Below are positions 2,745 through 42,537 of a stretch of DNA of 64,000 nucleotides, piece after piece (the stretch's first letter is position 1; each line of letters starts with the position of its first letter). Made by a program: the position numbers and the translations under genes. The notes beneath the pieces were generated by a model. That model searched no databases, was not told the DNA's origin, and saw only the letters and a list, made by a program, of their open reading frames with translations. The stretch spans positions 1 through 64,000 of the forward strand of contig JABDAV010000004.1 in NCBI GenBank assembly GCA_013289015.1. The letters are read 5' to 3'. Source of the stretch: Bacteroidota bacterium. Lineage in GTDB: Bacteria; Bacteroidota; Bacteroidia; Chitinophagales; Chitinophagaceae.

Positions 2745-3520
2745 TCTACGAAGCAGTAAAAGCAAAACATCCTGAAATAACTGTGATCGGAACAGTTGGC
2801 CCTGCGCCTGAGGGTGATGACTATAATAAAGGATGGGCGTTTGCAAACGCATTGTATGTGCCTGTTGTTGACGAACATTATTACAGTGCGCCTGAATGGT
2901 TTATCTCACATCAATATCGCTATGATGCATATAAAAGAAATGCAACGCAGGTATATGTTGGAGAATATGCTTCGTGGGGAAATAAAATGAAAAATGCTTT
3001 GGCAGAAGCAGCATACATGACAGCGCTTGAACGTAATGGCGATGTTGTGAAGATGGCGTCATATGCACCATTACTTGCCAAAGAGGGATTTACGCAATGG
3101 CGACCTGATATGATCTATTTTAATAACACCAGCATTACACCTTCTGTAAATTATTATGTTCAGCAATTATTTTGCAGTAATCGTGGTGATATGTTTTACA
3201 GCAATGTAATCGCTAAAAATGCAGGTGATTCTGCATTGGCTGCATCCTGCGTACAGGATTCGAAAACAGGCGATATTATCCTGAAACTGGTGAACGATTC
3301 TGATTCTTCCACAACAATGCATGTTAACCTGTCGACATTTAAAAAATTGATTCCTGCTGCAGTGAAAACAGAACTCACCGGCAATGCAGATGCATCAAAC
3401 GATTTCGGTAAAAATGCAGAAATTGTTCCGGTAACAACATCTTTTAATATAAACAAGTCTTTTGATTACAAAACGCCTGCAAGGTCTTTAACAGTGATCA
3501 GGATAAAGACCAAAAATTAA
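2741..3520 (+). pseudogene. GH51 alpha-L-arabinofuranosidase, C-terminal half
   Basis: Second part of the same GH51 enzyme, beginning with an ATG that overlaps the preceding TGA (ATGA). It carries the nucleophile Glu in VGEYASWG near residue 75, the rest of the barrel, and the C-terminal beta-sandwich (from about residue 170) that usually closes GH51 proteins. There is no signal peptide, which is inconsistent with an independently secreted protein. With the first half it makes a protein of about 658 residues, a normal length for Bacteroidota GH51. Translational coupling through the ATGA overlap is possible but would give two separate, probably unstable halves. Confidence 0.85.
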
Positions 3521-7895: not shown

Positions 7896-7994
7896 AGTCA
7901 TATCACTAATGTGATGGAAAGAATATAAAAATTATATCTTTTGATACAGCACTTTTTAATCAATGTTCATACAATCGCTAACAAAACAGTTGCC

Positions 7995-8849
7995 ATGAAA
8001 AAAATACTTATCAGTTTTCCATCTTTCATACCATTATTATTATTTGCACAAACGGCTACTATAAAAATTGATGTCACCAGAACCATTGGAGAAGTAGATC
8101 CAAAAATTTATGGTGTATTTATGGAGCCTATTCATTTCAATGGAAGAAGAATGGGTTTGTCTGATTCGGTAGAGTTTAATACGCTGTACGGAACATTGTA
8201 TGATCCTTCCTCACCGTTTGCAGATGAAAATGGTTTTCGCAAAGATTATATTGATGCCATGAAAGAATTGCGCATAACCAATATGCGTTGGCCCGGCGGA
8301 AATTATTTAATGGGATATAATTGGGAGGATGGCATTGGCCCAAAAGACCAGCGCCCTAAACGCATTAATCTTGCATGGGGCGGAACAGATAATAATCATG
8401 TGGGAACAGATGAATGGATTCAACTGAATAAATCAATAGGCAGCGAAAATGTTGTATGTGTAAATCTTGGTCTCGGTACTATTAACGATGCACTGCATTG
8501 GGTTGAATATTGTAATTATCCGAAAGGGACTTACTATTCAGATCTGCGCGCCACATACGGCCATCCTGAACCATATAATGTAAAGCTTTGGGATTTAGGT
8601 AATGAAGTAGATGGCGCACCTTGGGAACTAGGTCATAAGAACGCGGATGATTATGTAAAGATTGGAAGAGAAGCAGCAAAAGCAATGAAGGCTGTTGACA
8701 ATAGCATTAAATTCGTTGCATCAGGTTCATCTTATTACGAACCAACAGGCCAATGGGTAGATTTGGAACCGCACTGTATTGAACGGATTGGGCGATATGA
8801 TCAATTATATTTCTATTCACCGTTACTGGGAAGGAGGATCTCAAAATAA
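7995..8849 (+). pseudogene. second GH51 alpha-L-arabinofuranosidase, N-terminal half (frameshifted)
   Basis: N-terminal part of a second GH51 arabinofuranosidase, distinct in sequence from the one at 1.5 kb. The ATG at 7995 begins a clean signal peptide (MKKILISF to LLLFAQ); the longer frame from a TTG at 7941 adds 18 residues without support. The acid/base Glu lies in WDLGNEVDG. The correct reading QWVD should continue WNRTVLNGLGDM, but an extra T in the TTT run at 8762-8764 shifts it to a wrong frame, giving 29 unrelated residues before a stop. The nucleophile is downstream in the other frame. Either a sequencing error or a recent pseudogene. Confidence 0.83.
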
Positions 8850-9537
8850 TTACTACACTTTTATGGGCAGCGGTGCAATGGATTTTGAAGAGAAGATAAA
8901 AGTTACCGCCGCTGAAATTGAAGAGGCAAAAGCAAAGAATAATTTCACTAACCCGATTTATATTTCAGTCGATGAATATGGAAGTTTCGGAAGAAATTTT
9001 TTGGCAGTATTACCAACAGCACAATGTTTAAATTCATTTATCCGCCATGCAGATATAGTGAAGATGGCTGACTTTACGATGCTTACTTCATTATTGTCAA
9101 ACGATCTAAAGAATGGAACATTCAAATCACCCCTGTTCTATACGTTCAAATTGTTTTCGAATAACTGTCGCGGCAATTCAGTTGATACGTATGTTGATTG
9201 CGATACCTTCAACACAGAAAAATATAAAGGTATACCTTACCTTGATGTGACAACCGTTCATGCAAAAGATTCAAACATTGTTTACATAAATGTGGTGAAC
9301 AGAAGCCATGATAAAGCGATCACTGCAAACATTACAAGTACCCAAGGAAGCTTTACAGGAAAAGCAGCGGCGAGCATTGTAAACAGCGATGATCTTAATG
9401 CTGCATTTACCTTCGATAAACAGTCACAGTATGCACCTGTAATAAAAGATGTGAAAGTGAGTGATAATAAATTATCTTTTACATTTCCGCCGCATTCATT
9501 CACACAAATTAAAGTTGGCATTTCAGCAAAACAATGA
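8779..9537 (+). pseudogene. second GH51 alpha-L-arabinofuranosidase, C-terminal half
   Basis: Continuation of the second GH51 enzyme in the frame entered at 8764 (WNRTV). The TTG at 8779 is only the first possible start codon and is not a plausible real one, because the next residues are conserved barrel sequence (NYISIHRYWEG). The nucleophile Glu is in ISVDEYGSFG, followed by conserved FIRHADIVKMADF and a C-terminal beta-sandwich. Joined to the first half the protein would be about 514 residues, the usual length for a compact GH51. It ends 105 bp before the FG-GAP lipoprotein gene. Confidence 0.83.
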
Positions 9538-26930: not shown

Positions 26931-29489
26931 TTATTTGATAGTAAATCTCATACCGAAGTAAAACATTCTTCCTGTTACAGAACCCCAAACCAGCGATGCA
27001 TCAAAGTATGGACTGAAAGGCTGGTCTGCCGCAATAATTGCATCTTTCTGTACAGAGTTGGTGAGGTTCTCACAGCCAATATATATTTCGAACGGATCTT
27101 TTGTTCCGATAGTCTTGCTTACCTGGGCATTCATCATAACGAATGAAGGTGAATAAGCAGGTCGTTGATATTCGGCAGGATTTGCTGTTGTCGACGGTAA
27201 TCTTTTCCTGCCGCTGTAAGTAATTGTATAATCAAATTTCCAGCCATTAAATTCATAACCAATATTTCCAAATGCCCTGTTCCTTGAGAGTAATGGCTTT
27301 TCTAAAAGCTGATCACCATAAGTTGTTTTCACATCAAATAAACGATAGGCTAACTTAACATCCAGCTTCGCCAAAGGCGTAAACGAGACCTCACTTTGAA
27401 AACTGTTTGAGTATGATTTACCTGTAAGGTTATAAAACTTAACTACGCCCGGGTCTTCTAGATCAACTACCATCTGGTTCGTAAAATCATTCCTGAAAAA
27501 ATCTAATCCCAATGAGGCTGTACGGGCAAATAGCTGAAACTTTTGGTCGGCCGTTATACCTTTATTCCATGCAACCTCAGGCTTTAAACCATAGGCGCCG
27601 TTTGCAGTTGAAGCAATAATTTCTACTGTTCTTGAACTGACAAAGACGCTGTTGTTCTCCGCAAAAATATCCGCTGTTCTCTGTCCCCTGCCTGCACTTA
27701 ATCTTATCACTGTGTTTTTAAATGGTTGATACCTTACATTCAGCCGGGGCGTTGTAAACCATCCGTATAAATTGTTATGGTCTTCCCTGATGCCTGCAAC
27801 CAAATCAAATTTTGTTGAAGGTGTATAGGTGTATTCGAAGAATGCACCGGGAACCGCTTCTGTTCTTTTGTAATTATCTGTTTTAAAATCTTCGTTGTAT
27901 TTATCATATTGAAAACTTAAGCCCGTACGAAACTTATGTATGGTTGTATGGATGATGGATTGATAAATAAGATTGGAATAAAAACTCTGCTGGTGCGCAT
28001 CGTAGTTCGTAAAACCAAAGTATGAGTTTTGAGTATGATCGAAAGCAGACAACTGTAAGCCGATGCTCTTATATCTTTTTTCAGGAAACACATAACCCAA
28101 CTTACCAAATGCCTCATATCGCTTTGTATTGATGCCTAATCCGTAACTGTTGGTAGTAAACTTATCCGTTGCTGCATTATAATTCGTTTGCCCGCCTGTT
28201 CTGTCATCAGTTAATATTTTGAAACCGAACTGCGATATTAAGCCTTTGTTGTTATCAAATCCCCATTTATTGGCAACAGTAAATAAATTGCCTGTTGGTA
28301 AATCCCTGAAACCATCTTTATTGAAATCTAAATTTTGATTGTGCAAAAAATCGTTGTGCAGTAATACTTCAGTTGACCATTTGTTGCCAAGCTTTTGAGA
28401 CAGGTTTAAATTCAAATCTGTTTTTCCAAAACTATTAGTGTACACATTTGCATACAGCCTTTCACTTGCTGCAGGTTTTTTTAGTTCAACATTTATTTGT
28501 CCTGCAATACTTTCAAATCCATTTGCCACAGACCCTGTGCCTTTGCTCAATTGTATACTTTCAATCCAGGAGCCGGGAATTGAATTTAAACCCAATGATG
28601 TTGCCAAACCTCTTGGGCCTGGAAGGTTCTCAACTGTTAATTGTGTATAGATACCCGCTAAACCCAACAGTTGAATTTGTTTTGAGCCTGTTACAGCGTC
28701 ATTATAAGAAACATCAACCGAAGGATTGGTTTCAAAACTTTCACTGAGGTTACAACACGCTGCCTTGAAAAGTTCTTTCTGTGTAATGTTTTGTGTTCTG
28801 TAAATATCTGCTGAACTGATATAGGTGCTTCTTAAAGTTGATGTAACCTTTACATCTTTTAACTGGTTGCCTGGTGCCAGTACAATGTTCAGTTCTTTTG
28901 CCGGCGTTACTGAAATGGTGTCCGCCCTGAAACCCGTATAGCTTACTATTATTCTTTCTCCTTCGGGCTTTAAAGTGAATACACCGTTATCGTCCGTTAC
29001 GGTTCCTGAATTTTTTCCAGGCCACATTATAGTTGCACCCGCCAAAGGTTTGAATGAACCTTTATTGTCTTCTTCCAGGACAACGCCTTTTATCTCATCT
29101 TTCGATGATAAATTAACTGTTGTTGTGCCAGTTATATTTTGATTGTTTGTACTGTCCATGCTTTTCATATCACGATAGTAACAACAGGCCGGTAAAGATT
29201 GATAAATGATGTCCTTTGCTTTTTTGTTTTCTACATCATGACCTGCATCGAGAATACGCTTTTGCACCTTATCCAATGTTGTTTTGGACGGGTCGTAAAC
29301 AAGCGTGAGCATCTTAGTATCTACGTTCCATGAAGCAGAAACAACACCTTTCCCTTTTGATGCTGTTTCAATCCGGGGTTTACAATAAGCAGCACAAACA
29401 CCATACACTTTGAAAGTAACGGTTGTATCGGTTTCAGCAAACGATGCCTGTATCATCAATACGAATAATGAAATAAAAATGTATCTCAT
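26931..29489 (-). CDS. TonB-dependent receptor with N-terminal HMA-like metal-binding domain
   Basis: An 852-residue outer membrane receptor. After the signal peptide (ending SFAE) comes a heavy-metal-associated-like domain (about 22-90) with Cys residues in VYGVCAAYCKP, a CxxxC instead of the usual CxxC, then a Cys pair in SLPACCYYRD. A carboxypeptidase-regulatory-like beta-sandwich follows (about 134-212), then the TonB plug (about 235-350, with QIQLLGLAGIYTQLTVENLP) and the 22-strand barrel ending in FGMRFTIK. It is the last gene of a leftward operon with a heavy-metal-binding-domain protein and a HYC_CC_PP-type protein, so the substrate is probably a metal ion or metal complex, copper being a fair guess. 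Confidence 0.88.
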   Translation of the reverse strand: MRYIFISLFVLMIQASFAETDTTVTFKVYGVCAAYCKPRIETASKGKGVVSASWNVDTKMLTLVYDPSKTTLDKVQKRILDAGHDVENKKAKDIIYQSLPACCYYRDMKSMDSTNNQNITGTTTVNLSSKDEIKGVVLEEDNKGSFKPLAGATIMWPGKNSGTVTDDNGVFTLKPEGERIIVSYTGFRADTISVTPAKELNIVLAPGNQLKDVKVTSTLRSTYISSADIYRTQNITQKELFKAACCNLSESFETNPSVDVSYNDAVTGSKQIQLLGLAGIYTQLTVENLPGPRGLATSLGLNSIPGSWIESIQLSKGTGSVANGFESIAGQINVELKKPAASERLYANVYTNSFGKTDLNLNLSQKLGNKWSTEVLLHNDFLHNQNLDFNKDGFRDLPTGNLFTVANKWGFDNNKGLISQFGFKILTDDRTGGQTNYNAATDKFTTNSYGLGINTKRYEAFGKLGYVFPEKRYKSIGLQLSAFDHTQNSYFGFTNYDAHQQSFYSNLIYQSIIHTTIHKFRTGLSFQYDKYNEDFKTDNYKRTEAVPGAFFEYTYTPSTKFDLVAGIREDHNNLYGWFTTPRLNVRYQPFKNTVIRLSAGRGQRTADIFAENNSVFVSSRTVEIIASTANGAYGLKPEVAWNKGITADQKFQLFARTASLGLDFFRNDFTNQMVVDLEDPGVVKFYNLTGKSYSNSFQSEVSFTPLAKLDVKLAYRLFDVKTTYGDQLLEKPLLSRNRAFGNIGYEFNGWKFDYTITYSGRKRLPSTTANPAEYQRPAYSPSFVMMNAQVSKTIGTKDPFEIYIGCENLTNSVQKDAIIAADQPFSPYFDASLVWGSVTGRMFYFGMRFTIK

Positions 29490-29544
29490 TTAAATAAAAT
29501 TGAAGCACCGGATACAGAAGTTCCCGGTGCCTGTGAGGAATTTA

Positions 29545-29868
29545 TTACTGCTTCTTTTTTGACGTATATGCAACCATGTCCATTCCGCACTTAGGGCATT
29601 TACCCGGCCTGGTACATATTACATTGTCCATGGCACAGGTATACAGTTTTACAACTTCTGCCTTCATTACTTCTTTCTTTGATAAATTCTCACCGCAAAC
29701 AGGACATTTTCCTGCAGCGAAACTGATGTAATCAGGATGCATGGTGCAGGCGTAAATTAAAATTTTTGAAGTGTCTGTATTAACAGGGACCTTGTCTTGT
29801 TGGGCTTTTTGAGCAAATGATGTAACTGTTGCAAATGTTGCAAACATGCAGATAATAAGAGATTTCAT
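29545..29868 (-). CDS. Heavy-metal-binding domain (HMBD) protein, secreted
   Basis: A 107-residue secreted protein with a signal peptide (ending SFAQ) and two heavy-metal-binding units: YACTMHPD...GKCPVCGENL and YTCAMDN...GKCPKCGMDM. These are the CxMHP...PGxCPxCGM units found in front of copper efflux proteins; the second unit has MDN in place of MHP. It is likely a periplasmic or surface Cu/metal-binding protein. It lies 55 bp upstream of the TonB receptor gene in the same operon. Confidence 0.85.
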   Translation of the reverse strand: MKSLIICMFATFATVTSFAQKAQQDKVPVNTDTSKILIYACTMHPDYISFAAGKCPVCGENLSKKEVMKAEVVKLYTCAMDNVICTRPGKCPKCGMDMVAYTSKKKQ

Positions 29869-29948
29869 TAAATGATTTTATGTTTTTGAGAAATAAAGGG
29901 AATTGTCCGTAAAGAAGTGTTTACAGGTTAACAGGATAAAACATAAGA

Positions 29949-30314
29949 TCAAATTTTAAAAACGCAGTTGGATATATAAACCGGGGTCGCAGAATATAAA
30001 GGAGGGGCATGAATCCTTACGGATTGACTGCTGTTACTGATATCTGAATAATGTATTTCAAAACATGAATTAAGCGTATGAATAAAAGTATAAGTTAAAC
30101 CGGGTATGGCAAGAGTATCGGAGACCTGGTGTACATCCCTTATTTTAAAGGATTTGTATTTTACTTTGCAGCAACCTTCTTTATCTTTTGCACCATCTGC
30201 CAATATTAACCTAACCGATTTCAGATTATTACAGCAATAATCTGCCTGTACTGCAAAACCTGTTGAGGTGAATGCATACATGAAAATGAGAAATATAATT
30301 GCTGCCCTTTTCAT
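29949..30314 (-). CDS. HYC_CC_PP-type small secreted protein
   Basis: A 121-residue protein with a signal peptide (ending TGFAVQ). It shows the pattern of the HYC_CC_PP family: DYCC near residue 27 (Asp replaces the usual His), GCCKVKYK in the middle, and HAPPLYS near the C-terminus. Members of this family are commonly found beside metal-related TonB receptors in Bacteroidota, and the Cys pairs suggest metal binding. It is the first gene of the leftward metal operon, with a candidate -7 box just upstream. Confidence 0.78.
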   Translation of the reverse strand: MKRAAIIFLIFMYAFTSTGFAVQADYCCNNLKSVRLILADGAKDKEGCCKVKYKSFKIRDVHQVSDTLAIPGLTYTFIHTLNSCFEIHYSDISNSSQSVRIHAPPLYSATPVYISNCVFKI

Positions 30315-30332: not shown

Positions 30333-30376
30333 ATCATTTGCCGGACTAATTTAGATTATTGACCATACATACAATT

Positions 30377-30790
30377 TCCTTCCCCGCAGAGTGTACTTCA
30401 CTAATCATCCGCAAGAAAAACATGCAGGCACTCTGCGCATCAGGGTACTTAAGTTGCCATACTTTACTATTGCTTAATAGCGTCCCGGAATGCAGAACGG
30501 ATAAATTTTTAGAACAGAACAGGATTACATGCATTGCGAATCCTACCACCAGCAGTTTGCAAATACAGGATGTATTATCCACCCAAAACAAGCTTACAGT
30601 TAACATGAATTCGGCTTAAGCCTGAAAGGCTTTAATATAAATAGCCTTCGATGTAATCGGAGGATAAAATCGTGATTAATCAATTGAACCCCTGCAGGGT
30701 TCAATGTTGTTCATCCATTTTTTACCCCGCAATCCTTGCGCGGTTATTCAAATTAAATCCTTTCGGGATTACTTTATGCTTAACCCGAAC
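30377..30790 (+). repeat. Dispersed hairpin-rich repeat, copy A
   Basis: About 410 bp, non-coding. It begins with inverted arms CGCAGAGTG / CACTCTGCG about 42 bp apart and ends with a chain of short hairpins: AAGCCTGAAAGGCTT, GAACCCCTGCAGGGTTC, ACCCCGCAATCCTTGCGCGGT (imperfect here) and AATCCTTTCGGGATT. The same order is found in copies at 30.86 and 39.92 kb. Open frames inside it are not kept between copies. The sequence ends at a block also found beside the TonB receptor (26.9 kb). Confidence 0.85.
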
Positions 30791-30863
30791 TCACGTTACA
30801 TTTATTGATTTGAATGGCAATGTAAAGCTACAGGCTGTTGCCAATGCCCTATCTTATAACTTC

Positions 30864-31250
30864 CTTCTCCGCAGAGTGTCCTTCACTAATCATCAGGCAG
30901 ACAAAACATGCAGGCACTCTGCGCATCAGGGTACTTAAGTTGCCATACTTTACTATTGCTTAATAGCGCCCCGGAATGCAGAACGGATAAATTTTTAGAA
31001 CAGAACAGGATTACATGCATTGCGAATCCTGCACCGGCTGTTTGCAAATACAGGATGTATCATCCAACCAAAAACAAAGCTTACAGTTAACATGAATTCA
31101 GCTTAAGCCTGAAAGGCTTTAATATAAATAGCCTTCGATGTAATCGGAGGATAAAATCGTGATTAATCAATTGAGCCCTTGCGGGGTTCAATGTTGTTTA
31201 TTCATTTTTTACCCCGCAATCCTTGCGAATGGCAATGTAAAACCGCAGGC
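30864..31250 (+). repeat. Dispersed hairpin-rich repeat, copy B
   Basis: Direct, near-tandem second copy of the 30.38-kb repeat, about 90% alike by eye, lacking the last hairpin (AATCCTTTCGGGATT). Copies A and B are each followed by a short segment with inverted arms TGGCAA / TTGCCA (about 30815-30845 and 31231-31260), so the duplicated unit seems to include that element. No gene was found between 30315 and 31459. Confidence 0.85.
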
Positions 31251-32337: not shown

Positions 32338-32772
32338 ATGCACCGCTATTTAAAAGCCAAACACAAAACACAGGCTGTATCAACCGGCAGTAGTGTCGCT
32401 GCACCCCACCCCAACCTTCAGGAGCAACTCCCTGTAAAAGATTTCTCCAGGCAGTACTCTTCTGTAGGGTATGGTGGCCAGGAACACCAGTACTCCCCTT
32501 TAGGGGATGGGGGCAAAGATGGGATCAACCTGTACGAACAACTGTTGGCACAAGGCTTCTCCAAAGAAGATATACACAGCGCTTTTCATAAAGTAATTAT
32601 GCACCGTGCAGCCTGCAGAAAGGTGTATGAACAATTACCCCTTACCGGTAAAATAAAATGGCATTGTAAAAAATATTCAGAACAAGTAACCGGTTCTCTT
32701 TTACGCTTAACGGCAAAAGGCTTAATGCTGCTTAAAACACAGTTTGCCAAAAAACCGAAGAACCCGGTATAG
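32338..32772 (+). CDS. Hypothetical basic protein
   Basis: A 144-residue frame starting MHRYLKAKHKT, basic, without signal peptide. The C-terminal half (LYEQLLAQGFSKEDIHSAFH onward) looks helical and plausible as protein. The middle (about 38-60) contains low-complexity sequence with the palindrome CCCCTTTAGGGG, as if a small repeat had inserted in frame. The function is not recognised. The following 240 bp to susC hold only short repeated words (GAGTTGA, AACTATGAACTATC). Confidence 0.45.
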   Translation: MHRYLKAKHKTQAVSTGSSVAAPHPNLQEQLPVKDFSRQYSSVGYGGQEHQYSPLGDGGKDGINLYEQLLAQGFSKEDIHSAFHKVIMHRAACRKVYEQLPLTGKIKWHCKKYSEQVTGSLLRLTAKGLMLLKTQFAKKPKNPV

Positions 32773-33013: not shown

Positions 33014-35971
33014 ATGAAAATGAAAACATGCATTGCGGCCCTGCTATTGCTATGCGCATACGGCAGGCTGCAGGCGCAACAGGTGCTGAAAGGCAAAGTG
33101 ATCAATGCCATCACCAGCGAACCGGTAGCAGGTGCATCCGTATCACTTGAATCAACAAAACAGGGCACTGTTACCAATGCCGATGGGGCATTTACCCTCA
33201 CGGTTCCCATACCCGATACCCTCGTGGTAAGCCACATCAATTTTATCACGCAACGCATAGCGGTTAACCCGCTTCATCTTCAACCGCTGCTGGTAGAAGT
33301 AGAAGAAGCGGGCCACCAGCAGGATGAAGTAGTTATAATAGGTTATGGCACTACCTCAAAAAGGTTCAACACCGGCTCGGTAAGCACGGTTACCGGTAAA
33401 ATTATCAGTCAGCAGCCGGTTACCAATGTGCTGGCAGCTATTCAGGGTCGCGCTCCCGGTGTATTCGTAAGTACCCAAAACGGGCTTCCGGGCGGCAATA
33501 TTACAGTACAGGTAAGAGGTAAAAATTCTATAGATGCGGGTAATAACCCACTCTATGTAATAGATGGCGTACCATTTATATCGGTGCCGCTCAACAACGG
33601 GAAGGCAGACATTGAATTTGCAAGCGGACCCATCAGCCCGCTGAACAGCATCAATCCTGCCGATATAGAAAGCATAACTATTTTAAAAGATGCCGATGCA
33701 ACCGCCATTTACGGCTCAAGGGGCGCTAACGGGGTTGTGCTGATCACCACCAAAAAAGGAGAAGCGGGCGCAACCAAAACAACGGTTAACTTTTATGACG
33801 GCATCAGCAAAGCAACAGATCGCAGCCAGCTGCTTACGTTGCCACAATATTTAATGATAAGAAGGGAAGCTTTTGCCAACGACAGTACGCCGCCCGATGT
33901 GTACAATGCTCCTGATCTTGTAGTATGGGATACTGCCAAAAGTACAAACTGGCAGCAGTATATATTGGGTGGAACAGATCATGTACAAAACATAAATGCC
34001 GGCATCAGCGGCGGCAATGACATGACCTCTTTTTTAATAGGAGGCAATTACCGGCATGAAACCAGTATATTGCCCGGAGAACAATACTACAGCCGCGGCG
34101 GAGCGCATATAAACATCAGCCATCATGATAAAAACAACAGGACAGGCCTAAGCTTTACGGCAAGCTACACAGGCGATAAAAATGTGCAACCGCCTCCCAT
34201 GGATGGCTATACGATGCTGCCGCCCGATTTTCCCATGTATAATCCTGATGGAAAATTAAACTGGGACCTGTTTACACTTAACCCCTCTGCCACGCTGATG
34301 CAGCCTGCAGAAAGCAAAACCACCACACTTACCAGCAATCTTGTTGTATACTATGCTATTACAAAAGCCCTTAAATTAACAGTAAGCGGCGGATATACCA
34401 GTACTGAACTAAAGCAATATGCAATACAGCCTCTTGCGAGCCTGAATCCTTTATTTGGCGAACCCAACGGCGCTATTTCCGGCAATACGGCTTATGAAGC
34501 TGTTATAGCAGAACCGCAACTGAATTATGAAAAGCAGATTGGAGCAGGCAAACTTACTGTTCTGGCAGGAGGAAGCTGGCAAAACAGTAATAGTACCGCC
34601 ACTGTAATTCATGCCATTAATTATAGTAATGAAGCTTTGTTATACAGCCTGGGCGCTGCAGGCGGCATAGACTATATTAATGACAGCTATACCAATTATA
34701 AATATGTATCTGGCTTTGGAAGGGTTAACTATAACCTGCTGCAACGGTATATATTAAATATTGATTTCAGAAGAGATGGTTCCTCGCGTTTCGGGCCAGG
34801 CAGGCAGTACGGAAATTTTGGTGCGGCCGGTGCCGCCTGGTTATTTTCGGAAACACAGTGGGCAAAGAGCCGTTTACCCTGGCTTAACTATGGCAAGCTG
34901 AGAGCAAGTTACGGGATAACAGGAAATGACGGGATACAGGACTACCAGTATATGAGCAGCTACAGACCTGGTGTAAGTTACGCGGGAGTTACTACTATTT
35001 ATCCTGTGCGGATAGCCAACCCTGATTATGAATGGGAAACCAATAAAAAAACAGAAATAGCACTGGAGACAGGAGTGTTGCATAACCGGGTGAGAATAAA
35101 TGCAGGCTGGTACAGTAACCGAAGCAGCAATCAACTGGTGCAATACCCGCTTGCTTCGCAGGCAGGTTTCAACAGTTATGAATATAACCTGCCGGCAATT
35201 ATAGAAAATAAGGGATGGGAATTTGAACTAAGTTCAGATAACATTAAAAGCCGGTTAAACTGGACAACAAACGTTAACCTTACCGTTGCAGGCAACAAAC
35301 TGGTTTCTTTTCCCGGTATAGAAAAAACCAGCTATGCCAGCCGGTATGTTGTGGGGCAAAGCCTGGATGTAATAAAAGGATTCAGGTTTTTAGGCATTGA
35401 TCCTGCAAACGGAGTGGCAAAATATGAAGATGTAAATAAAGACGGCGTAATATCTGCACCGGCGGATTATGTGGTTACAGGCAACCAGTCCCTGGCCTTT
35501 TATGGAGGTATTGATAACAGTTTTACCTATCAGGGCTTTGAGCTGAGTATATTCTTACAATTTGTTAAACAGGAAGGGTTAAGACCGTCTTTCGCGCCCG
35601 GATTTGATTATGCATCTAATGATAACGCGATTGTTCTGAACCGCTGGCAAAACCCTGGTGATATAACAAATGTGCCCAGGGCAGCTACGGTTTACGGAAC
35701 AGAAGCCTGGAATGCCAACCTGGACCTTTCTACTTCCAGCGCCATTGTAACAGATGCCTCCTACTGCAGGTTTAAAACCGTGTCTTTTTCTTATCAATTA
35801 ACACCCTCAACATCAAAAAAAATAGGAATGAAGCAGGCAAGGGTGTTTGTGCAGGCAGAGAACCTGTTTACTATTTCCGGTAAAGAACGCACCGACCCCG
35901 AGTTGCTTACAACAGGCGGCGGCATACCTCCCTTGCATAGTTATGTGGCTGGTATTGAAATAACCTTTTAA
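33014..35971 (+). CDS. SusC/RagA family TonB-linked outer membrane protein
   Basis: A 985-residue SusC-type outer membrane importer. It has a signal peptide (ending LQAQ), a carboxypeptidase-regulatory-like domain (about 25-90), the SusC plug with the family signature around QVRGKNSIDAGNNPLYVIDG (about 166-185) and ATAIYGSRGANGVVLITTKKG, then the large barrel. The first residues of the mature protein lack an extended STN domain, so it is unlikely to signal to a FecR. It is followed by SusD after 11 bp. The segment is visibly more GC-rich than the xylan locus. The substrate is unknown; the TlpA-like third gene suggests peptide or redox-linked cargo rather than glycan, as no hydrolase is near. 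Confidence 0.93.
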   Translation: MKMKTCIAALLLLCAYGRLQAQQVLKGKVINAITSEPVAGASVSLESTKQGTVTNADGAFTLTVPIPDTLVVSHINFITQRIAVNPLHLQPLLVEVEEAGHQQDEVVIIGYGTTSKRFNTGSVSTVTGKIISQQPVTNVLAAIQGRAPGVFVSTQNGLPGGNITVQVRGKNSIDAGNNPLYVIDGVPFISVPLNNGKADIEFASGPISPLNSINPADIESITILKDADATAIYGSRGANGVVLITTKKGEAGATKTTVNFYDGISKATDRSQLLTLPQYLMIRREAFANDSTPPDVYNAPDLVVWDTAKSTNWQQYILGGTDHVQNINAGISGGNDMTSFLIGGNYRHETSILPGEQYYSRGGAHINISHHDKNNRTGLSFTASYTGDKNVQPPPMDGYTMLPPDFPMYNPDGKLNWDLFTLNPSATLMQPAESKTTTLTSNLVVYYAITKALKLTVSGGYTSTELKQYAIQPLASLNPLFGEPNGAISGNTAYEAVIAEPQLNYEKQIGAGKLTVLAGGSWQNSNSTATVIHAINYSNEALLYSLGAAGGIDYINDSYTNYKYVSGFGRVNYNLLQRYILNIDFRRDGSSRFGPGRQYGNFGAAGAAWLFSETQWAKSRLPWLNYGKLRASYGITGNDGIQDYQYMSSYRPGVSYAGVTTIYPVRIANPDYEWETNKKTEIALETGVLHNRVRINAGWYSNRSSNQLVQYPLASQAGFNSYEYNLPAIIENKGWEFELSSDNIKSRLNWTTNVNLTVAGNKLVSFPGIEKTSYASRYVVGQSLDVIKGFRFLGIDPANGVAKYEDVNKDGVISAPADYVVTGNQSLAFYGGIDNSFTYQGFELSIFLQFVKQEGLRPSFAPGFDYASNDNAIVLNRWQNPGDITNVPRAATVYGTEAWNANLDLSTSSAIVTDASYCRFKTVSFSYQLTPSTSKKIGMKQARVFVQAENLFTISGKERTDPELLTTGGGIPPLHSYVAGIEITF

Positions 35972-35982
35972 AAAATAATACA

Positions 35983-37347
35983 ATGAAACATTTAAATACC
36001 ATAACAGTTTTACTGATTTTGCTCGGCTGTGCCACCGGAAGCTGTAAAAAAATGATAGAAGCAAAGCCACCGGTGAATGAAATTACCAGCGAAGCAGCTT
36101 TTAAAGACAGTGCAGGTACCGTAGCTGCTTTACTTAATATTTACAGCCAGTTCGGCGCTACCGGCGGAAGCATAGAAGGATACTACTCGCCTTATCCTTC
36201 GCTTTACGCAGATGAACTGGAACCCACTTCTGCAGGCAGCAATGATTATGAATATTATACCAACAGCGTAAGCATAAATAACGCAACCAATGCCGCTTGC
36301 TGGAGCCGTTTGTATTACGTAATATATGAATGCAATGCATTACTTAAAGGCATTACAGGTTCTCCCGCCTTAACAGGTTCTTTTATCAGCAAAACGGGTG
36401 GAGAGGCTAAATTTTTAAGAGCATTCAGTTATTTTCTGCTGGTAAATTATTATGGTGATGTGCCGCTTGTATTAAGTACTGACGTAACCGTTACTGCGTC
36501 ACTTGCAAGAAATACACAGGCCGTCATATATAAGCAGATATTGCAGGACCTTACCGATGCAACAGGCGAGCTCGGTGTTGATTACCCGTCTGCTGAAAAA
36601 GTCAGGGCCAACAAATGGGCAGCAGAGGCTTTACTGGCAAAAGTTAACCTTTATACAGGCAACTGGAAAGATGCGGAAGCAGCATCTGACCTTGTACTCA
36701 ACAGCGGTATATATACACCATTGGAAGAACCGGCAAATGTATTTTTGGCGAACAGCAAAGAAACAATATTACAATTTGAAGAGAAGTATGGCTACAGCTG
36801 GAGCGGTATTTATTTTCAGCCCTTCTACGGATCAGTTGAATTCAGCATTACACCCGGGCTGTTGCAGGCATATGAAAGCAATGACCTGCGCAGGAAAGAA
36901 TGGATAGATTCTGTAATTGATAACGGTATTGTATTGTATTATCCTGCCAAATACAGGAACAGCAATTTTAATATGGTTAACAGTGCTGAATATACTATGT
37001 GCCTGAGGGTAGCGGAACAATATCTTATAAGAGCCGAAGCCAGGTGTCATGAAGATAAAACCGCTGATGCCGTTGCAGATGTAAATATTGTAAGAAACCG
37101 GGCGGCCATTGATCCGGTAAGCGCCGGTATTTCCAAAGACTCCTGCCTTAACCTTATTGAAGAAGAACGAAAACGGGAGCTTTTTACAGAATGGGGGAAC
37201 CGCTTTTTTGACCTGAAACGAACAGGAAAAGCGGATATGGTTTTAGGAACGGCGAAAGCCAATTGGAAAAGTTCAGATAGCCTGCTGCCCGTTCCGCAAA
37301 TTGAATTGAATAATAATCCTTCATTAATCCAAAATCAAGGCTACTAA
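35983..37347 (+). CDS. RagB/SusD family nutrient-binding lipoprotein
   Basis: A 454-residue surface lipoprotein partnering the SusC channel. The signal peptide offers two lipobox Cys (LLGC and TGSC). The SusD fold is shown by the N-terminal TPR-like helices (AALLNIYSQF, FLRAFSYFLLVNYYGDVPL) and the C-terminal segment RNRAAIDP...LNLIEEERKRELFTEWGNRFFDLKR with the closing LLPVPQIELNNNPSLIQNQGY. Full length, unlike the scrap at 14.5 kb. It acts as the lid of the SusC transporter. Confidence 0.93.
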   Translation: MKHLNTITVLLILLGCATGSCKKMIEAKPPVNEITSEAAFKDSAGTVAALLNIYSQFGATGGSIEGYYSPYPSLYADELEPTSAGSNDYEYYTNSVSINNATNAACWSRLYYVIYECNALLKGITGSPALTGSFISKTGGEAKFLRAFSYFLLVNYYGDVPLVLSTDVTVTASLARNTQAVIYKQILQDLTDATGELGVDYPSAEKVRANKWAAEALLAKVNLYTGNWKDAEAASDLVLNSGIYTPLEEPANVFLANSKETILQFEEKYGYSWSGIYFQPFYGSVEFSITPGLLQAYESNDLRRKEWIDSVIDNGIVLYYPAKYRNSNFNMVNSAEYTMCLRVAEQYLIRAEARCHEDKTADAVADVNIVRNRAAIDPVSAGISKDSCLNLIEEERKRELFTEWGNRFFDLKRTGKADMVLGTAKANWKSSDSLLPVPQIELNNNPSLIQNQGY

Positions 37348-37357
37348 ATAACACTTT

Positions 37358-38713
37358 ATGAAATGGAGTATTAAAGTTTATGGGCTGCTTTTTTTGATTG
37401 CTGTAAACAGATCAGACGCACAAAACACAACGAAACTACAGGCATTGAAAATAGGAGATGTGGTGCCCGCTATAACCATACATAATATTCACAATTATAA
37501 AAAACCTGCTGCAACATTAGCTGAGTTGGGCAATGGCAAACCACTAATCATTGATTTCTGGGATACACATTGCAATAGTTGTTTAAAAAGCCTGCCTTCA
37601 ATAGATAGCTTATACCGGAAGTTTAATGAGAATTTCAATGTTTTGTCTGTAACAAGTGAAGACAGTACTGCAGTAAGGCATCTGTTTAATTCGCTTCCCT
37701 CGTTGCAAAACATCCGGTTGCCCTATATAACCAACGACAAACTATTTGCGTCTTTCTTCCCCCATCGCTATGTACCCCACATTGTATGGATTAACTCAAA
37801 AGGAAGAGTGGTTGCTTATACCTCTGAAAACGAAGTATCCGCAGATGGCATTCAAAGTTTTATAGAAAATGATAGCGTGCATTTATTTACAAAGGAAGAT
37901 GATATGCAGTTTGATATCAGGAATCCCTATCATCCTGCTGATTCGCTGATACTATATAAATCGTCTTTCTCGCACTTTAACCCGTCCGTCATCAGCAATT
38001 TTTATACAAAAGCGGGGAGAGATACTGCTTTTAATATTACCGATTCTGTAACCCGTATTTGCATTATAAATGGTAAACCGGTAAATATGCTTTATGAGGC
38101 ATTTTCAGAATTAACCGGGGTACAATATTTTACGAGCCCACAATATTTCAGGATAATTTTTAATATACATGACTCTGCCAACTATTATTTCCCGGTTGCT
38201 GACAGTATACCAAAGAATATTACCTGGAAGATGAACAACCTGTTTTGTTATGAACAAATAACACCTCCGGAAAGCAAAACAGTTTTTTTTTCGTACATGC
38301 TTAACAACTTAAATATGTATTTACCTATACAGGGAAAGATTGAAAAAAAGCAGATGCCCTGTTATGTTATAAGAAATATATTAAACCATAACGATCTGAT
38401 TAAGTCAGCAGGTGGCCTGCCTGTTTATAGCGATTGGGGAGGCAACAAAGACAGTGTAACTGTTATTTTAAAGAATAGCCCGTTTTCTGCTTTTGTAGCA
38501 TTATTGAACCAATTTGAACTGAACCTGCCGGTTTATGATGAAACAAATTTTACTGAACCTGTTGATATGAAGATAGCGTTGAATATTAAAGACAGTCACT
38601 GGCTGATTAAATACGATGTAAATACGCTTAAAAAAGCATTACATGCTTACGGACTTGAATTAACAGAGACGGGAAAGTTAATGGATGTATTGGTTATAAG
38701 CGACCGGAATTAA
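37358..38713 (+). CDS. TlpA-like thioredoxin fused to DUF3738-like domain
   Basis: A 451-residue secreted protein. Signal peptide (ending SDAQ), then a TlpA/AhpC-TSA-type thioredoxin fold (about 30-170) with the redox motif DTHCNSCLKS (CxxC, about 67-76) and the cis-Pro region YVPHIVWI. The C-terminal half resembles DUF3738: LPVYDETNFTEPVDMKIALN and LKKALHAYGLELTE...MDVLVISD. It lies 10 bp after susD, so co-transcribed. It probably acts in the periplasm as a thiol-disulfide reductase for imported or exported material. Confidence 0.82.
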   Translation: MKWSIKVYGLLFLIAVNRSDAQNTTKLQALKIGDVVPAITIHNIHNYKKPAATLAELGNGKPLIIDFWDTHCNSCLKSLPSIDSLYRKFNENFNVLSVTSEDSTAVRHLFNSLPSLQNIRLPYITNDKLFASFFPHRYVPHIVWINSKGRVVAYTSENEVSADGIQSFIENDSVHLFTKEDDMQFDIRNPYHPADSLILYKSSFSHFNPSVISNFYTKAGRDTAFNITDSVTRICIINGKPVNMLYEAFSELTGVQYFTSPQYFRIIFNIHDSANYYFPVADSIPKNITWKMNNLFCYEQITPPESKTVFFSYMLNNLNMYLPIQGKIEKKQMPCYVIRNILNHNDLIKSAGGLPVYSDWGGNKDSVTVILKNSPFSAFVALLNQFELNLPVYDETNFTEPVDMKIALNIKDSHWLIKYDVNTLKKALHAYGLELTETGKLMDVLVISDRN

Positions 38714-38717
38714 GAAA

Positions 38718-38752
38718 CAGGAGGTTGTCTTAAAGGTTTAAGACAACCCCTG
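38718..38752. terminator. Bidirectional terminator between TlpA-like and DUF6520 genes
   Basis: Perfect 12-bp inverted repeat GGTTGTCTTAAA-GG-TTTAAGACAACC flanked by CAGG/CCTG. It sits between two convergent genes (stops at 38713 and 38763), so it can stop transcription from both sides. Confidence 0.75.
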
Positions 38753-38762
38753 TAATTGTAGA

Positions 38763-39038
38763 TTAGGGTTTTTTAATATAAATGTTCTGTGGAATAGTAT
38801 GCCCCAGGTTCCATTCACGGAAACAGGTTAAATTGCTTCCATTACATCCCGGATTATCATGCTGTACCTGTGCTTCTGTTTCACCGGTCAGGAATGTGGA
38901 TGTCGGATTACCCGATGCATCATAAACCTGCCAGTCGAAAGTTGGGTCTAAAGTAGCATGCCCGCGCGGAGGTACAGTAAATGCTGTGGCAGCAAAAGCC
39001 AGCGCAACCGCTAATGTGCCTGCAAAATGTTTTTTCAT
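38763..39038 (-). CDS. DUF6520-like small secreted protein
   Basis: A 91-residue secreted protein with a signal peptide (about 1-22). The mature part has a Trp-rich pattern (DPTFDWQVYDASGNPTSTFL) and a Cys pair in NPGCNGSNLTCFREW. This matches the short DUF6520 proteins that Bacteroidota carry next to MauE-type genes. The two Cys could form a disulfide. The mauE-like gene lies upstream on the same strand, so the two are probably co-transcribed. Confidence 0.7.
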   Translation of the reverse strand: MKKHFAGTLAVALAFAATAFTVPPRGHATLDPTFDWQVYDASGNPTSTFLTGETEAQVQHDNPGCNGSNLTCFREWNLGHTIPQNIYIKKP

Positions 39039-39118
39039 AACAAAAATTTTTTAGCTTAAAATATCACCTACTCTTTCCTACAGGTTTTCGGTTACCCCTG
39101 TTTGTTGCAACAATTATT

Positions 39119-39571
39119 TTAAGGATAAGCATTACCGGTTTTATTAAATACGGTAACCTTATCAGTATTTTTTCTTTTAAGATAAATACCTGTTAGGGAA
39201 AGCCCCAGGAAGAAGAGATTGAACGCTATATGCTGCTTCCACGACAATTGCGCAATAACGCCCCCGCAGGAACAGGGCAGGTTTGTATTAAAACTTACCA
39301 TTACAATTAAAAAAGCGGTAAACAGGAACAGCAGGGTGGCAGATGCATATAAGCCTGTAAGAAACCAGCGCGGAATAAATAAGAGCACAACTACTATATA
39401 TTCGGCCGCAGGGATACACCAGGAAAGAAAACTTCCATAGCCGCCTAATACAGGAAACCGCGTTAACTGTACCCTGAACATAGCATGGCCTGCCAGCTTG
39501 CTGGTGGCCGCGTACACAAATAAGAAAATAAGCAGGAAACGAATGATAGGTATAGCTGTATTCTTTCTCAT
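39119..39571 (-). CDS. MauE/DoxX-type redox-associated membrane protein
   Basis: About 150 residues with four membrane segments (roughly 9-26, 45-67, 73-97 and 118-136). The motif NLPCSCGGVIAQLSWKQHI is the CxC signature of MauE-like proteins, which assist disulfide formation in periplasmic partners. The start at 39571 (MRKNTAIPIIRF) places the first membrane helix normally; an upstream ATG at 39604 would add 11 residues. It lies upstream of the DUF6520-like gene and opposite the SusC-SusD-TlpA operon. Confidence 0.82.
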   Translation of the reverse strand: MRKNTAIPIIRFLLIFLFVYAATSKLAGHAMFRVQLTRFPVLGGYGSFLSWCIPAAEYIVVVLLFIPRWFLTGLYASATLLFLFTAFLIVMVSFNTNLPCSCGGVIAQLSWKQHIAFNLFFLGLSLTGIYLKRKNTDKVTVFNKTGNAYP

Positions 39572-39739
39572 GTAATATTGATGAATCAGGTTATGCATGG
39601 GCAAATGATTCGATAATGTGATACAAGTTTAGGCAGATAGCAGGTAGCATAAATAGCCCGGGATCATTTTTAGTATCAATCCCGCGAAGTTTTAGTATCA
39701 GTCCTGGTAAGTTTTGGTACCAGTACCGGAAAAATTCCT

Positions 39740-39855
39740 TTTCTTCTCCGCAAAGTGTCCTTCACTAATCATCCGGCAAGAAAAACATGCAGGCACTCTG
39801 CGGCACCAGGGTACTTAAGCTGCGCATACATTCCTATTGTTTAATAGCGCCCTGG
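39740..39855 (+). repeat. Dispersed hairpin-rich repeat, copy C (5' part only)
   Basis: Carries the first about 115 bp of the repeat, from the CGCAAAGTG / CACTCTGCG arms to TTTAATAGCGCCC, then diverges. Just before it lies a short triplicated word at about 39668-39725 (TTTTAGTATCA, TTTTAGTATCAG, TTTTGGTACCAG). Same orientation as copies A, B and D. Confidence 0.75.
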
Positions 39856-39921
39856 TTAGTAATTTGGCATAAAAACGCATAATGTCTGTACGCAAAGCGA
39901 TAGCAGAAAAAGGTGGTATTT

Positions 39922-40345
39922 ATTTCCTTCCCCGCAGAGTATCCTTCACTAATCATCCGGCAAGAAAAACATGCAGGCACTTAAGTTGCACATACTTTAC
40001 TATTGCTTAATAGCGTCCCGGACTGCAGAACGGATAAATTTTTAAAACAGAACTGAATTCATGCATTGGGAATCCTGCCACCAGCAGTTTGCAAATACAG
40101 GATGTATTATCCACCCAAAAACAAGCTCACAGTTAACATGAGTTCGGGTTAAGCCTGAAAGGCTTTAATATAAATAGCCTTCGATATAATCGGAGGATAA
40201 AATCGTGATTAATCAATTGAACCCTTGCAGGGTTCAATGTTGTTCATCCATTTTTTACCCCGCAATCCTTGCGGGGTTATTCAAATTAAATCCTTTCGGG
40301 ATTACTTTATGCCTTCCTTCCCCGCAGAGTGTCCTTCACTAATCA
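39922..40345 (+). repeat. Dispersed hairpin-rich repeat, copy D
   Basis: Nearly full copy, including the perfect hairpins AAGCCTGAAAGGCTT, GAACCCTTGCAGGGTTC, ACCCCGCAATCCTTGCGGGGT and AATCCTTTCGGGATT. It carries a small deletion near 39980 that removes the CTCTGCG arm. It is followed by the beginning of another copy (CCGCAGAGTGTCCTTCACTA) at about 40321-40340. No gene is visible in 39605-40424. Confidence 0.85.
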
Positions 40346-40424
40346 AGTTAAAAGAATAAATGTTGATTGAATCGCTTTCATTGATCTGTTGGTTTTAAGG
40401 CTATAATTTGGGATCGCATTATTT

Positions 40425-40844
40425 TTAGGGCTTGAAAACTTTTATGCTGTTTGATGTTTGGTTAAGAATAAGCTTCACAACATAAATACCTGCAGGCTTA
40501 TCATTTAAACCAAGCGGTATTGTATAAATCCCTTTGGATAAATTTCCTTTGTTTATCGTGTTAAGTATTACACCATCGATTGTGATAACCTGTACAATAA
40601 CATTGGAAGATTGATCTAATTGCAGGTGAAGCGTGGCGTTATTGGCAACATCTGAAACGTACCATTTTGAACTGTTCAGGTTTACTAACACAATAGAGGA
40701 ATAGTTGGAGCTGCCGCTTATGTCTGATTCCTTTATCCTGTAATAGATGATGGAATTATCGCTTGCATTATTGTCTGTATAGCTGTAATTATTTGACTTT
40801 AGGTTACCCTTTGAATTGATAAAACTTATTGTATTAAAATGCAC
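40425..40844 (-). pseudogene. PPC-domain T9SS protein, C-terminal part (frameshifted)
   Basis: Last third of the protein that starts at 42537. It holds the end of a fibronectin/Ig-like segment and the T9SS type A sorting domain (LHLQLDQSSNVIVQVITIDG to SIKVFKP). The true sequence runs FEVQR-S-T-D-G-V-H-FNTISF across the break: a base is missing in the AAAGAGC stretch near 40856-40862, so the upstream frame ends at CILIQ. The Met at 40844 is not a real start. Confidence 0.8.
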
Positions 40845-41752
40845 GCCGTCTGTGCTCTTTGTACCTCAAAACCTTTGCAGTTTATTTCATCAGCGCTGAT
40901 CCATTCAAGTATAGGTTTATTGTTGATGACACTGCCGGAAAACTTAATAAATGTAACAGGTAAGACACTGTTACTGCGCAGTTCAAATGCGTAGGCATTC
41001 CAGCCGGAATCAGGATGTGCGTTTGTAATCTTAAGATAATACATGCCTTGTTTTAAACCCTCAAGCGATATGGTATCAGCGGCATTATTCAAAATTTTAC
41101 TGAACACCGGTGCCAACAATGTATCATCATATAACTCTACCTGCAATCCCTGTAATGTATTGTCAGCAAGGGAAGGCAGCAAGCTGAATAATAACCGGAT
41201 GTTTCCGTAAATATCTGTTTGATTTATTTTCCACCAGTCTGCACTGTCGCGGCCTTTGTTATGCAAAAAGCCTACATGGCCTTCAACAGGCTGCCTGTTT
41301 TTTACTTCCGTGGCTAAATAAGGAAGGTTATTGTTTTCCTCCTTACTATCAGATGCATATTTATAAGTGAATAAGCTATCAGATAATATGTAGGAAGAAT
41401 AACTGTGCCACCCTTTGCCATATATTACGAGATAATACTTGCCTGAGCCAAGGCCATCAATAAGGAAATCTTTTTGACGCAGCTCAGCAACAATACCCTT
41501 CTTAATCACATTTTGCCTTGTATCAAACAATTTAAATTGAACAAGGTTCAGGTTGTTATCAGCACTCAATCTCAATTTAAGCATTCCATCAACAGGTAAG
41601 TCTATTTTATACCAGTCTGCCCGGTCGGTTTTAGTGTCATAATAATATTGAATATGCCCTTGCGTTGTGCTGTTTACAGGCAAGTCTATTGCCTGTGAAG
41701 GCCGGTCATCCGGTTCAGCATCGTTTGAATCCAGTGTCGGCACAAAATGCAT
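40826..41752 (-). pseudogene. PPC-domain T9SS protein, middle part (frameshifted)
   Basis: Middle section with two bacterial pre-peptidase C-terminal (PPC) domains, recognised by repeated EPDD/NNLPYLAT openings, DWYKIDLPVDGMLKLRLSA and DWWKINQTDIYGNIRLLF strands, and LGSGKYYLVIYG / LKQGMYYLKITN ends. In-frame codons upstream of the Met at 41752 read on as TYFIWVNYYPPYELFGPYSF, joining directly to the N-terminal part. One G is missing in GCTGTACC near 41819 (expected GCTGGTACC, Ala-Gly-Thr). Confidence 0.82.
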
Positions 41753-41796
41753 GGAAAAACTATAGGGACCAAAAAGTTCGTATGGCGGATAATAAT

Positions 41797-42537
41797 TTAC
41801 CCAAATAAAGTAGGTACAGCTCTGAGCCCCTGCTGCTCCATTGTTTTGGATTGTCCTGGGTCATTAAAAGATGCTAGCAAACCGTTGTTTAGAGAATCTC
41901 CAAGATTGAATTCCATCGAGTTGATATTACTGCCATTGTTGAATGTTAGGTAAAGATTGCCATCAGCAGGTGTTGTAAAAGAAAAATAGTCGTCTTTATC
42001 AATCTTTCCATTATGATTGTACCCGATGTGGCCATATACAGTATCACTTAACTGTATGGGAGTATGCGGCCCGAACCACCACATATCGTTTGGCTCCTTA
42101 TCATTTGGCCCTGTTACGGCTATCAAAGTGTTAGATATTATATACGATGCTGTGTCAATAGCCGCAGCACCTTTCATCTTAATAAAATAAGTGCCTGCAC
42201 CCAGGCCATCTGCATGCATGGTTTGAACAGTGTTTTCATTTACCGTAACACTATCTAATATCGTGTAAAAGCTGCTATCGTATAACTCTACATGGATTGC
42301 TCCTACATTGCCTGTGTTTTGAATAGTAATATCTAATTTACCATCACTATTGGTTGTTACTTTCCACCAGTCAATATCATTGGGTTTTTCTATTGAACCA
42401 TAACCAGTATTGTTCAGGAGCAAAGCGCTTGCCTGGCCTGCAATGTCATTTGGTTCAAGTTCCGAAGTTTGTGCCCCAACGGAAACAGTTTGAAATGCAA
42501 AAAATATTAATGCTAAAAGGCAAGGTGAACGTTTCAT
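41797..42537 (-). pseudogene. PPC-domain T9SS protein, N-terminal part
   Basis: Begins with a signal peptide (MKRSPCLLALIFFAFQTVSV, cut at GAQT) and carries two PPC domains (ELEPNDIAGQASALLL, DIDWWKVTTNSDGKLDITIQ, LGAGTYFIKMKG; then a second copy with DKDDYFSFTTPADGNLYLTF). The frame ends at LRAVPTLFG because of a one-base deletion. With its other two parts it would make a surface protein of about 700 residues with at least four PPC domains and a T9SS signal. No catalytic domain was seen, so it may be adhesive. Confidence 0.82.

Follow-up and report, generated by a model that had tools for sequence, protein, structure and literature searches.

What does a SusC/SusD (SusCD) pair do when it is encoded without hydrolases but in the company of thiol-active proteins? 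SusC/SusD pairs are abundant in Bacteroidota, where they rank among the commonest transporters, and many of them have no known substrate. The window analyzed here, 64,000 nucleotides from a Chitinophagaceae genome (GCA_013289015.1, contig JABDAV010000004.1), holds such a pair together with a TlpA-type thioredoxin, a small secreted protein, and a MauE-type membrane protein. Our analysis favors, at somewhat better than even confidence, a SusCD cassette with its own thiol-disulfide relay and a cassette-specific small protein, controlled either by an extracytoplasmic function (ECF) sigma factor with FecR or by an upstream open reading frame (ORF) with a fixed C-terminal tail. Recognizing a subclass of these pairs by its dedicated thiol relay and secreted two-cysteine mini-protein offers a specific and testable idea of their role.

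A convergent SusCD, small-protein and MauE cassette

All five genes lie where the initial annotation had placed them, and SusC, SusD, and MauE matched their family profiles. The SusC/RagA-type TonB-dependent outer-membrane transporter (985 residues; 33,014-35,971, forward strand) scored 680.9 bits against TIGR04056, whose cutoff is 368 (3.9e-204), and belongs to the SusC/RagA family of TonB receptors. The adjacent SusD/RagB-type surface lipoprotein (454 residues; 35,983-37,347, forward) exceeded the cutoffs of PF14322 (2.6e-27) and PF07980 (8.1e-25), and its lipobox cysteine is conserved. It is followed by a periplasmic TlpA/ResA-type thioredoxin with a C-terminal DUF3738-like region (37,358-38,713, forward; Pfam Thioredoxin_8, 3.3e-7). 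The reverse strand encodes the small secreted protein, which is DUF6520-like (91 residues; 38,763-39,038), and the MauE-type redox-associated membrane protein carrying C111-S-C113-G-G (39,119-39,604, with an alternative ATG start at 39,568). The latter belongs to PF07291, with 98.0 bits against a cutoff of 27 (6.6e-28). The proposed terminator shared by the two convergent operons was recovered as a hairpin at 38,717-38,753 (−22.9 kcal/mol, z −5.1 against dinucleotide shuffles), possibly a bidirectional terminator.

The cassette contains no hydrolase, as had been noted. No glycan-active enzyme was found among the ORFs and Pfam matches between 32 and 40 kb, so the locus is not a polysaccharide utilization locus; glycoside-hydrolase-like genes, judged by sequence only, lie at 0-9.5 kb of the window, more than 20 kb upstream. 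SusC and the SusD lipoprotein are common to this cassette and to SusCD/RagAB uptake systems, as are ECF sigma, FecR, and the STN signaling domain in many relatives. Compared with those systems, the cassette lacks a hydrolase and adds TlpA, MauE, and the small two-cysteine protein. It is a SusCD system with MauE-family and TlpA/ResA-family partners.

The window TlpA was searched in 197 Chitinophagaceae genomes, and 94 loci were annotated by means of profiles seeded with the window proteins. Among these loci, 75 cassettes were complete and lay away from contig ends. The dominant order across these loci is SusC-SusD-TlpA, with or without preceding ECF sigma and FecR genes, or TlpA-SusC-SusD. In this arrangement the small gene and MauE are convergent to the SusCD genes and are followed by an AraC- or Crp-type regulator. 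The small gene, MauE, or both stood convergent downstream in 70 of the 75 complete cassettes, with both present in 51. Another 20 DUF6520/MauE loci, picked as not near a TlpA match, mostly still adjoin SusCD, and a recognizable TlpA is missing from several cassettes. The core unit is SusCD together with the small protein and MauE.

The cassette also extends to a second family, treated as Sphingobacteriaceae on the grounds that the cassette also appears in Pedobacter records. Small-protein matches were obtained in 65 of its 151 genomes. Nearly all of 20 small-protein loci read there had SusC/SusD alongside, and none had FecR or an STN domain. A phylum-wide search found the small protein in 9 of 247 genomes, several of these being weak matches inside longer frames. 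The initial annotation had staked its proposal on linkage of the DUF6520-MauE half to the SusC/D-TlpA half in other genomes. Such linkage is strong in Chitinophagaceae (70/75) and in the second family; the objection that the halves are not conserved together therefore fails.

A protein of about 353 residues is encoded between TlpA and MauE in nine loci (cluster 16; including L047, L048, L049, L065, L078, and L132), some of which had no detected small gene. Three members examined had no Pfam match, and the protein is perhaps a secreted or membrane-anchored propeller.

A proposed thiol relay and the small secreted protein

Cysteine conservation was computed over about 70 cassettes. TlpA C72 and C75 were conserved at 100% and 97%, and small-protein C65 and C72 and MauE C111 and C113 at 100% each. 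In mature SusC, no cysteine was conserved at 40% or more, and the lipobox Cys21 is the only family-conserved cysteine of SusD. The thiol theme seen earlier outside SusC/D is strengthened, since apart from the SusD lipobox the conserved cysteines are confined to TlpA, the small protein, and MauE. Within the cassette, this restriction makes the small protein the obvious client of MauE and TlpA, and a dedicated thiol relay acting on it is the best reading of the conservation pattern.

The CxxC motif of TlpA (C72-N-S-C75) sits in a thioredoxin fold. The predicted model (predicted local distance difference test, pLDDT, 83.7) aligned over residues 29-170 with 4nmu (Z 16.5, root-mean-square deviation 2.1, 134 residues), and the domain models as ResA/Etrx2/TlpA-like. 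The fusion described in the initial annotation is sound in its thioredoxin half; the other half is only DUF3738-like, scoring 19.6 bits (E 0.0011) against the PF12543 cutoff of 22, with a relative (L045) at 18.6. This C-terminal region carries a second, less conserved cysteine pair (C297, 54%; C335, 77%). Among 26 MauE relatives, the invariant residues were C111, C113, G114, G115, W122, H125, N129, and E68.

Judging from these sequences, the small protein most likely has its disulfide set by MauE and TlpA and then works together with its own SusCD pair. Inner-membrane MauE (CSCGG) would set the redox state of the C65/C72 pair, with periplasmic TlpA as its soluble partner where present. The small protein would then act with the SusCD pair encoded alongside, as accessory or cargo. 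A comparable grouping is the MauE/MauD maturation of the methylamine dehydrogenase small subunit, which, as cited in PMC7794033 (van der Palen 1997), likewise groups a MauE-family membrane protein, a thioredoxin-like protein, and a small secreted protein with cysteines. The small protein here differs in having two cysteines and no recognized relation to that subunit, and its partner is SusCD. No methylamine dehydrogenase subunit or other mau gene was recognized by eye among the window ORFs or recurrent neighbor clusters, a reading made without a profile search for the subunits. MauE homologues beside cysteine-rich precursors have been reported in candidate clusters for ribosomally synthesized and post-translationally modified peptides (RiPPs) of Streptomyces (decRiPPter; PMC7794033). 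Disulfide formation is cited there as a speculated role of MauE. Those clusters share with the cassette a MauE homologue beside a small cysteine-containing protein, but their precursors are much richer in cysteine, they lack SusCD, and they belong to another phylum.

The small protein combines a conserved signal peptide, a hypervariable mature part, and the two invariant cysteines C65 and C72. The 94 loci yielded 89 homologues, 78 of them with two cysteines beyond residue 18, and mean pairwise identity was 41.9% in the signal part versus 17.5% in the mature part. The DUF6520 label given to it applies to its relatives and not directly to the window protein, which had no PF20130 match at E ≤ 1; its closest relative fell just below the cutoff. 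The paralogue in a second cassette of the same genome (G000:C41, L070) passed the cutoff and aligns to the window protein with shared invariant cysteines. The predicted structure of the small protein (pLDDT 65.7) was too poor to use.

The second cassette has a gene order different from that of the window. Its MauE is 84.5% identical to the window MauE, and the other four proteins are only 28-34% identical, suggesting a recent exchange of MauE. Such a difference would be expected for a generic enzyme with a specific client. Within genomes (27 non-independent pairs), small-protein divergence tracked SusC and SusD (rho 0.62-0.65) more than MauE (0.33), a co-divergence that is suggestive only.

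A doubtful but substantial alternative makes the small protein the cargo itself. It would be a disulfide-closed secreted peptide with a signaling, antagonistic, or metal-binding role, matured by MauE and TlpA, released, and re-imported through its own SusCD in the manner of methanobactin. Methanobactin operons combine a TonB receptor, ECF sigma/FecR, and a small gene-encoded cysteine peptide, which is re-imported via the TonB receptor. The first three features recur in these cassettes, although the cassettes add SusD, their small protein is larger, and no modification enzymes were found. The conserved signal part with a hypervariable mature part, the within-genome co-divergence with SusC and SusD, and the convergent neighborhood of the small gene and SusCD would all suit a cargo. 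So would ECF sigma/FecR control in many cassettes, the multiple small-protein genes of a single cassette (L093, with a tandem of six preceding MauE), and the MauE homologues beside cysteine-rich precursors in candidate RiPP clusters (PMC7794033). Against this, recurrent neighbor clusters contained no conserved export or modification enzyme beyond MauE and TlpA, and a mature part of about 70 residues is large for a peptide ligand. The initial annotation had proposed a system that makes, exports, or imports a disulfide-bearing small protein or peptide. That interpretation is supported in part: its linkage and thiol theme stand, and production, export, or import of the small protein is a putative role.

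A DUF805b cis-regulatory RNA (RF02914; 39,065-39,101, reverse) occupies the 5′ region of the small gene, in the interval separating it from MauE, with 37.5 bits against a gathering score of 35.6 (E 8.5e-8). The element occupies the same position in L044, L057, L034, L038, and L039. Further copies lie at other loci, several per genome throughout the family, so the small gene may belong to a broader regulon.

The upstream frame and the exchange of regulators

Control of the cassette lay outside the initial annotation. This regulatory layer comprises a leader ORF or ECF sigma/FecR upstream, an AraC/Crp regulator that relatives carry next to MauE, and the DUF805b RNA. During neighbor clustering, an ORF directly 5′ of SusC or TlpA was singled out by its C-terminus. 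In the window it spans 32,338-32,772 (forward; 144 residues in its longest form) and ends in MLLKTQFAKKPKNPV-stop, with the invariant tail codons K-P-K-N-P-V plus stop at 32,752-32,772; a start nearer the C-terminus is possible. This tail is conserved upstream of cassettes. The degenerate DNA pattern for KPKNPV-stop, AARCCNAARAAYCCNGTNTRR, gave 28 sites in 22 of the 197 genomes and 13 sites in 11 of the 151 genomes of the second family, and the reversed pattern gave no match in either set. Over all DNA collected, the tail occurred at 102 distinct sites. TlpA or SusC of a cassette lay within 1.8 kb 3′ of the tail at 88 of 96 assessable sites (92%), with the gene start within 400 nucleotides at 81 sites; this collection was partly gathered via TlpA, and only the pattern scans give unbiased figures.

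The tail is also present in many Pedobacter species, where the ORFs have about 20 residues (for example, MSLSNHYPFDRLYALKPKNPV). The N-terminal parts of the upstream ORFs vary. With the tail removed, the middle part of the window ORF is homologous to ORFs of L088 (E 2e-7), L122, and L052. Tail variants include KPRNPI, KPKQPV, KPKNPT, and KPKNPE. A looser class, x-P-[VE]-stop, was found in 10 of 14 loci of the second family (shuffle mean 0.9, maximum 3), an exploratory count as the class was defined after viewing the same loci. A role of the tail as a DNA or RNA motif is disfavored by third-codon variation (AAA/AAG, all four CCN codons, all four GTN codons, and all three stops), an argument limited by a search pattern that itself demands those amino acids. 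Relaxed matches (A[QH]KPK[QH]PV) in Lentisphaeria and Clostridia had no cassette downstream and were set aside.

The tail ORF replaces the ECF sigma/FecR pair. FecR was found upstream in 39 of the 75 complete cassettes, none of which had the tail, and 25 of the 36 cassettes without FecR had it (p 1e-11, valid if loci are independent). A relaxed or displaced tail was present in six more cassettes without FecR. The STN domain was carried by SusC in 38 of 39 FecR-type cassettes versus none of the 25 tail-type cassettes, and although the STN profile was trained on 15 FecR-type loci, the result holds without them. Because the loci are related, the exchange was also read on a SusD tree of the quick kind. 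This tree required at least 13 changes of regulator type. Over six independent pairs on supported branches, almost every pairing had STN following FecR (sign test, median p 0.031). The window SusC lacks the N-terminal STN domain, as in all 25 leader-ORF cassettes; with no sigma factor, FecR, or STN, the window locus is not a FecIR system. Where SusCD/RagAB relatives have ECF/FecR control, the window type has the upstream tail ORF in its place. This repeated swap is a natural experiment in the rewiring of signal control.

The region between the tail and the operon was examined for RNA structure. In Pedobacter, 19 of 24 loci had a stem of 9-16 bp starting within 16 nucleotides of the leader stop, with a T-rich stretch after it (shuffle mean 1.8, maximum 5). 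The stems vary in sequence from locus to locus, and the gene start lies only 37-60 nucleotides past the stem in about ten loci. A short ORF followed by a terminator-like hairpin before a gene is the layout of an attenuator, suggesting such a role in Pedobacter. The tail hairpin had no Rfam match at E ≤ 1 in seven loci. A hairpin with the apical loop TTTTCTCATG lies 3′ of the tail stop in part of the Chitinophagaceae loci (L156, L166, L171, L172, L181, and L203).

Where SusC-STN/FecR/ECF sigma signaling does not control the SusC operon, as in the window, the upstream ORF with its invariant KPKNPV-stop tail would do so. The tail would slow the ribosome at the stop codon and thereby govern read-through into the operon, and a ribosome held there would extend as far as the stem base. 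Known examples of leader-peptide attenuation and of ribosome-arrest leaders are TnaC, SecM, and ErmCL. The features in common are a short upstream ORF, a variable N-terminus, a C-terminus conserved at the stop, and, in Pedobacter, the terminator-like hairpin. The KPKNPV tail is not among their sequences, the genes governed here are SusCD cassettes, and stalling is putative in this case. The window resembles leader-peptide attenuation, of which the terminator-like hairpin was significant in Pedobacter and not in Chitinophagaceae. The tail ORFs suggest a possible class of regulatory nascent peptides, none of which was found described for the phylum in the open-access literature searched. That literature (subscription papers and preprints excluded) did not mention DUF6520, KPKNPV, DUF805b, or the "DUF805 motif", and open-access titles and abstracts on MauE, SusC, TlpA, and leader peptides contained nothing recognizable.

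A broader proposal is tentative and falls short of an even chance. It holds that a new leader-peptide family, with the core [FYW]-A-x-K-P-K-N-P-V-stop and a broader form x-P-[VETI]-stop, would halt terminating ribosomes when an envelope or thiol signal is present. The family would control SusCD cassettes in place of STN/FecR/ECF sigma, and these cassettes would handle secreted disulfide mini-proteins that diversify, each specific to its SusCD pair.

The competing view, likewise short of an even chance, makes the upstream ORF a separate small-protein gene that has its own terminator and encodes a trans-acting product, such as a regulator or peptide signal. Some forms do reach 80-144 residues with homologous N-terminal parts, the distance to the operon is up to about 1 kb in a few loci, and a terminator would end such a transcript. 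However, the 37-60 nucleotides between hairpin and gene in about ten loci leave little room for a promoter, and the tail is conserved while most of the upstream protein varies. The position of 92% of the assessable tail sites before a cassette and the swap with FecR/sigma also favor a leader over an independent gene.

Remaining alternatives and neighboring features

Encoded beside SusCD, TlpA and MauE could instead support disulfide-dependent folding in the SusCD complex or throughout the envelope, with the small protein not a client. This is improbable. SusCD is disfavored as their target because mature SusC has no conserved cysteine and SusD only that of its lipobox, and the small protein has exactly two invariant cysteines. 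An accidental neighborhood, conceivable given how numerous SusC/SusD pairs are in Bacteroidota genomes, is refuted because the gene order and the convergent orientation recur across many genera and in a second family.

Several observations weigh against the explanation we favor, a SusCD cassette with a thiol relay and alternative upstream control. Both the small gene and MauE were missing from 5 of the 75 complete cassettes, and a few of the 20 loci chosen away from TlpA consisted of MauE and the small gene alone, without SusCD. Over all pairs, co-divergence of the small protein with SusC was weak (rho 0.18; permutation maximum 0.11), and there was none between TlpA and the small protein (rho 0.03). 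In Chitinophagaceae, including the window, terminator-like stems were found in 3 of 47 loci (shuffle mean 0.9, maximum 4), which is not significant. The action of MauE on the small protein is inferred, and the upstream ORF is only a putative translated leader. Ribosome pausing or stalling, its inducing signal, attenuation, read-through, and any function of the small protein are likewise deduced from sequence.

Other features of the window lie outside the cassette. At 1,545-3,520, 7,941-9,537, and 40,425-42,537, adjacent overlapping ORFs resemble single genes split by frameshifts and may be assembly errors of this 66%-complete genome. A TonB-type receptor with an N-terminal HMA-like segment lies at 26,931-30,314 beside a small protein with metal-binding-like cysteine motifs, perhaps forming a metal-handling cluster. 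Repeated intergenic sequence units are present at 30,359-31,090 and 39,740-40,350.

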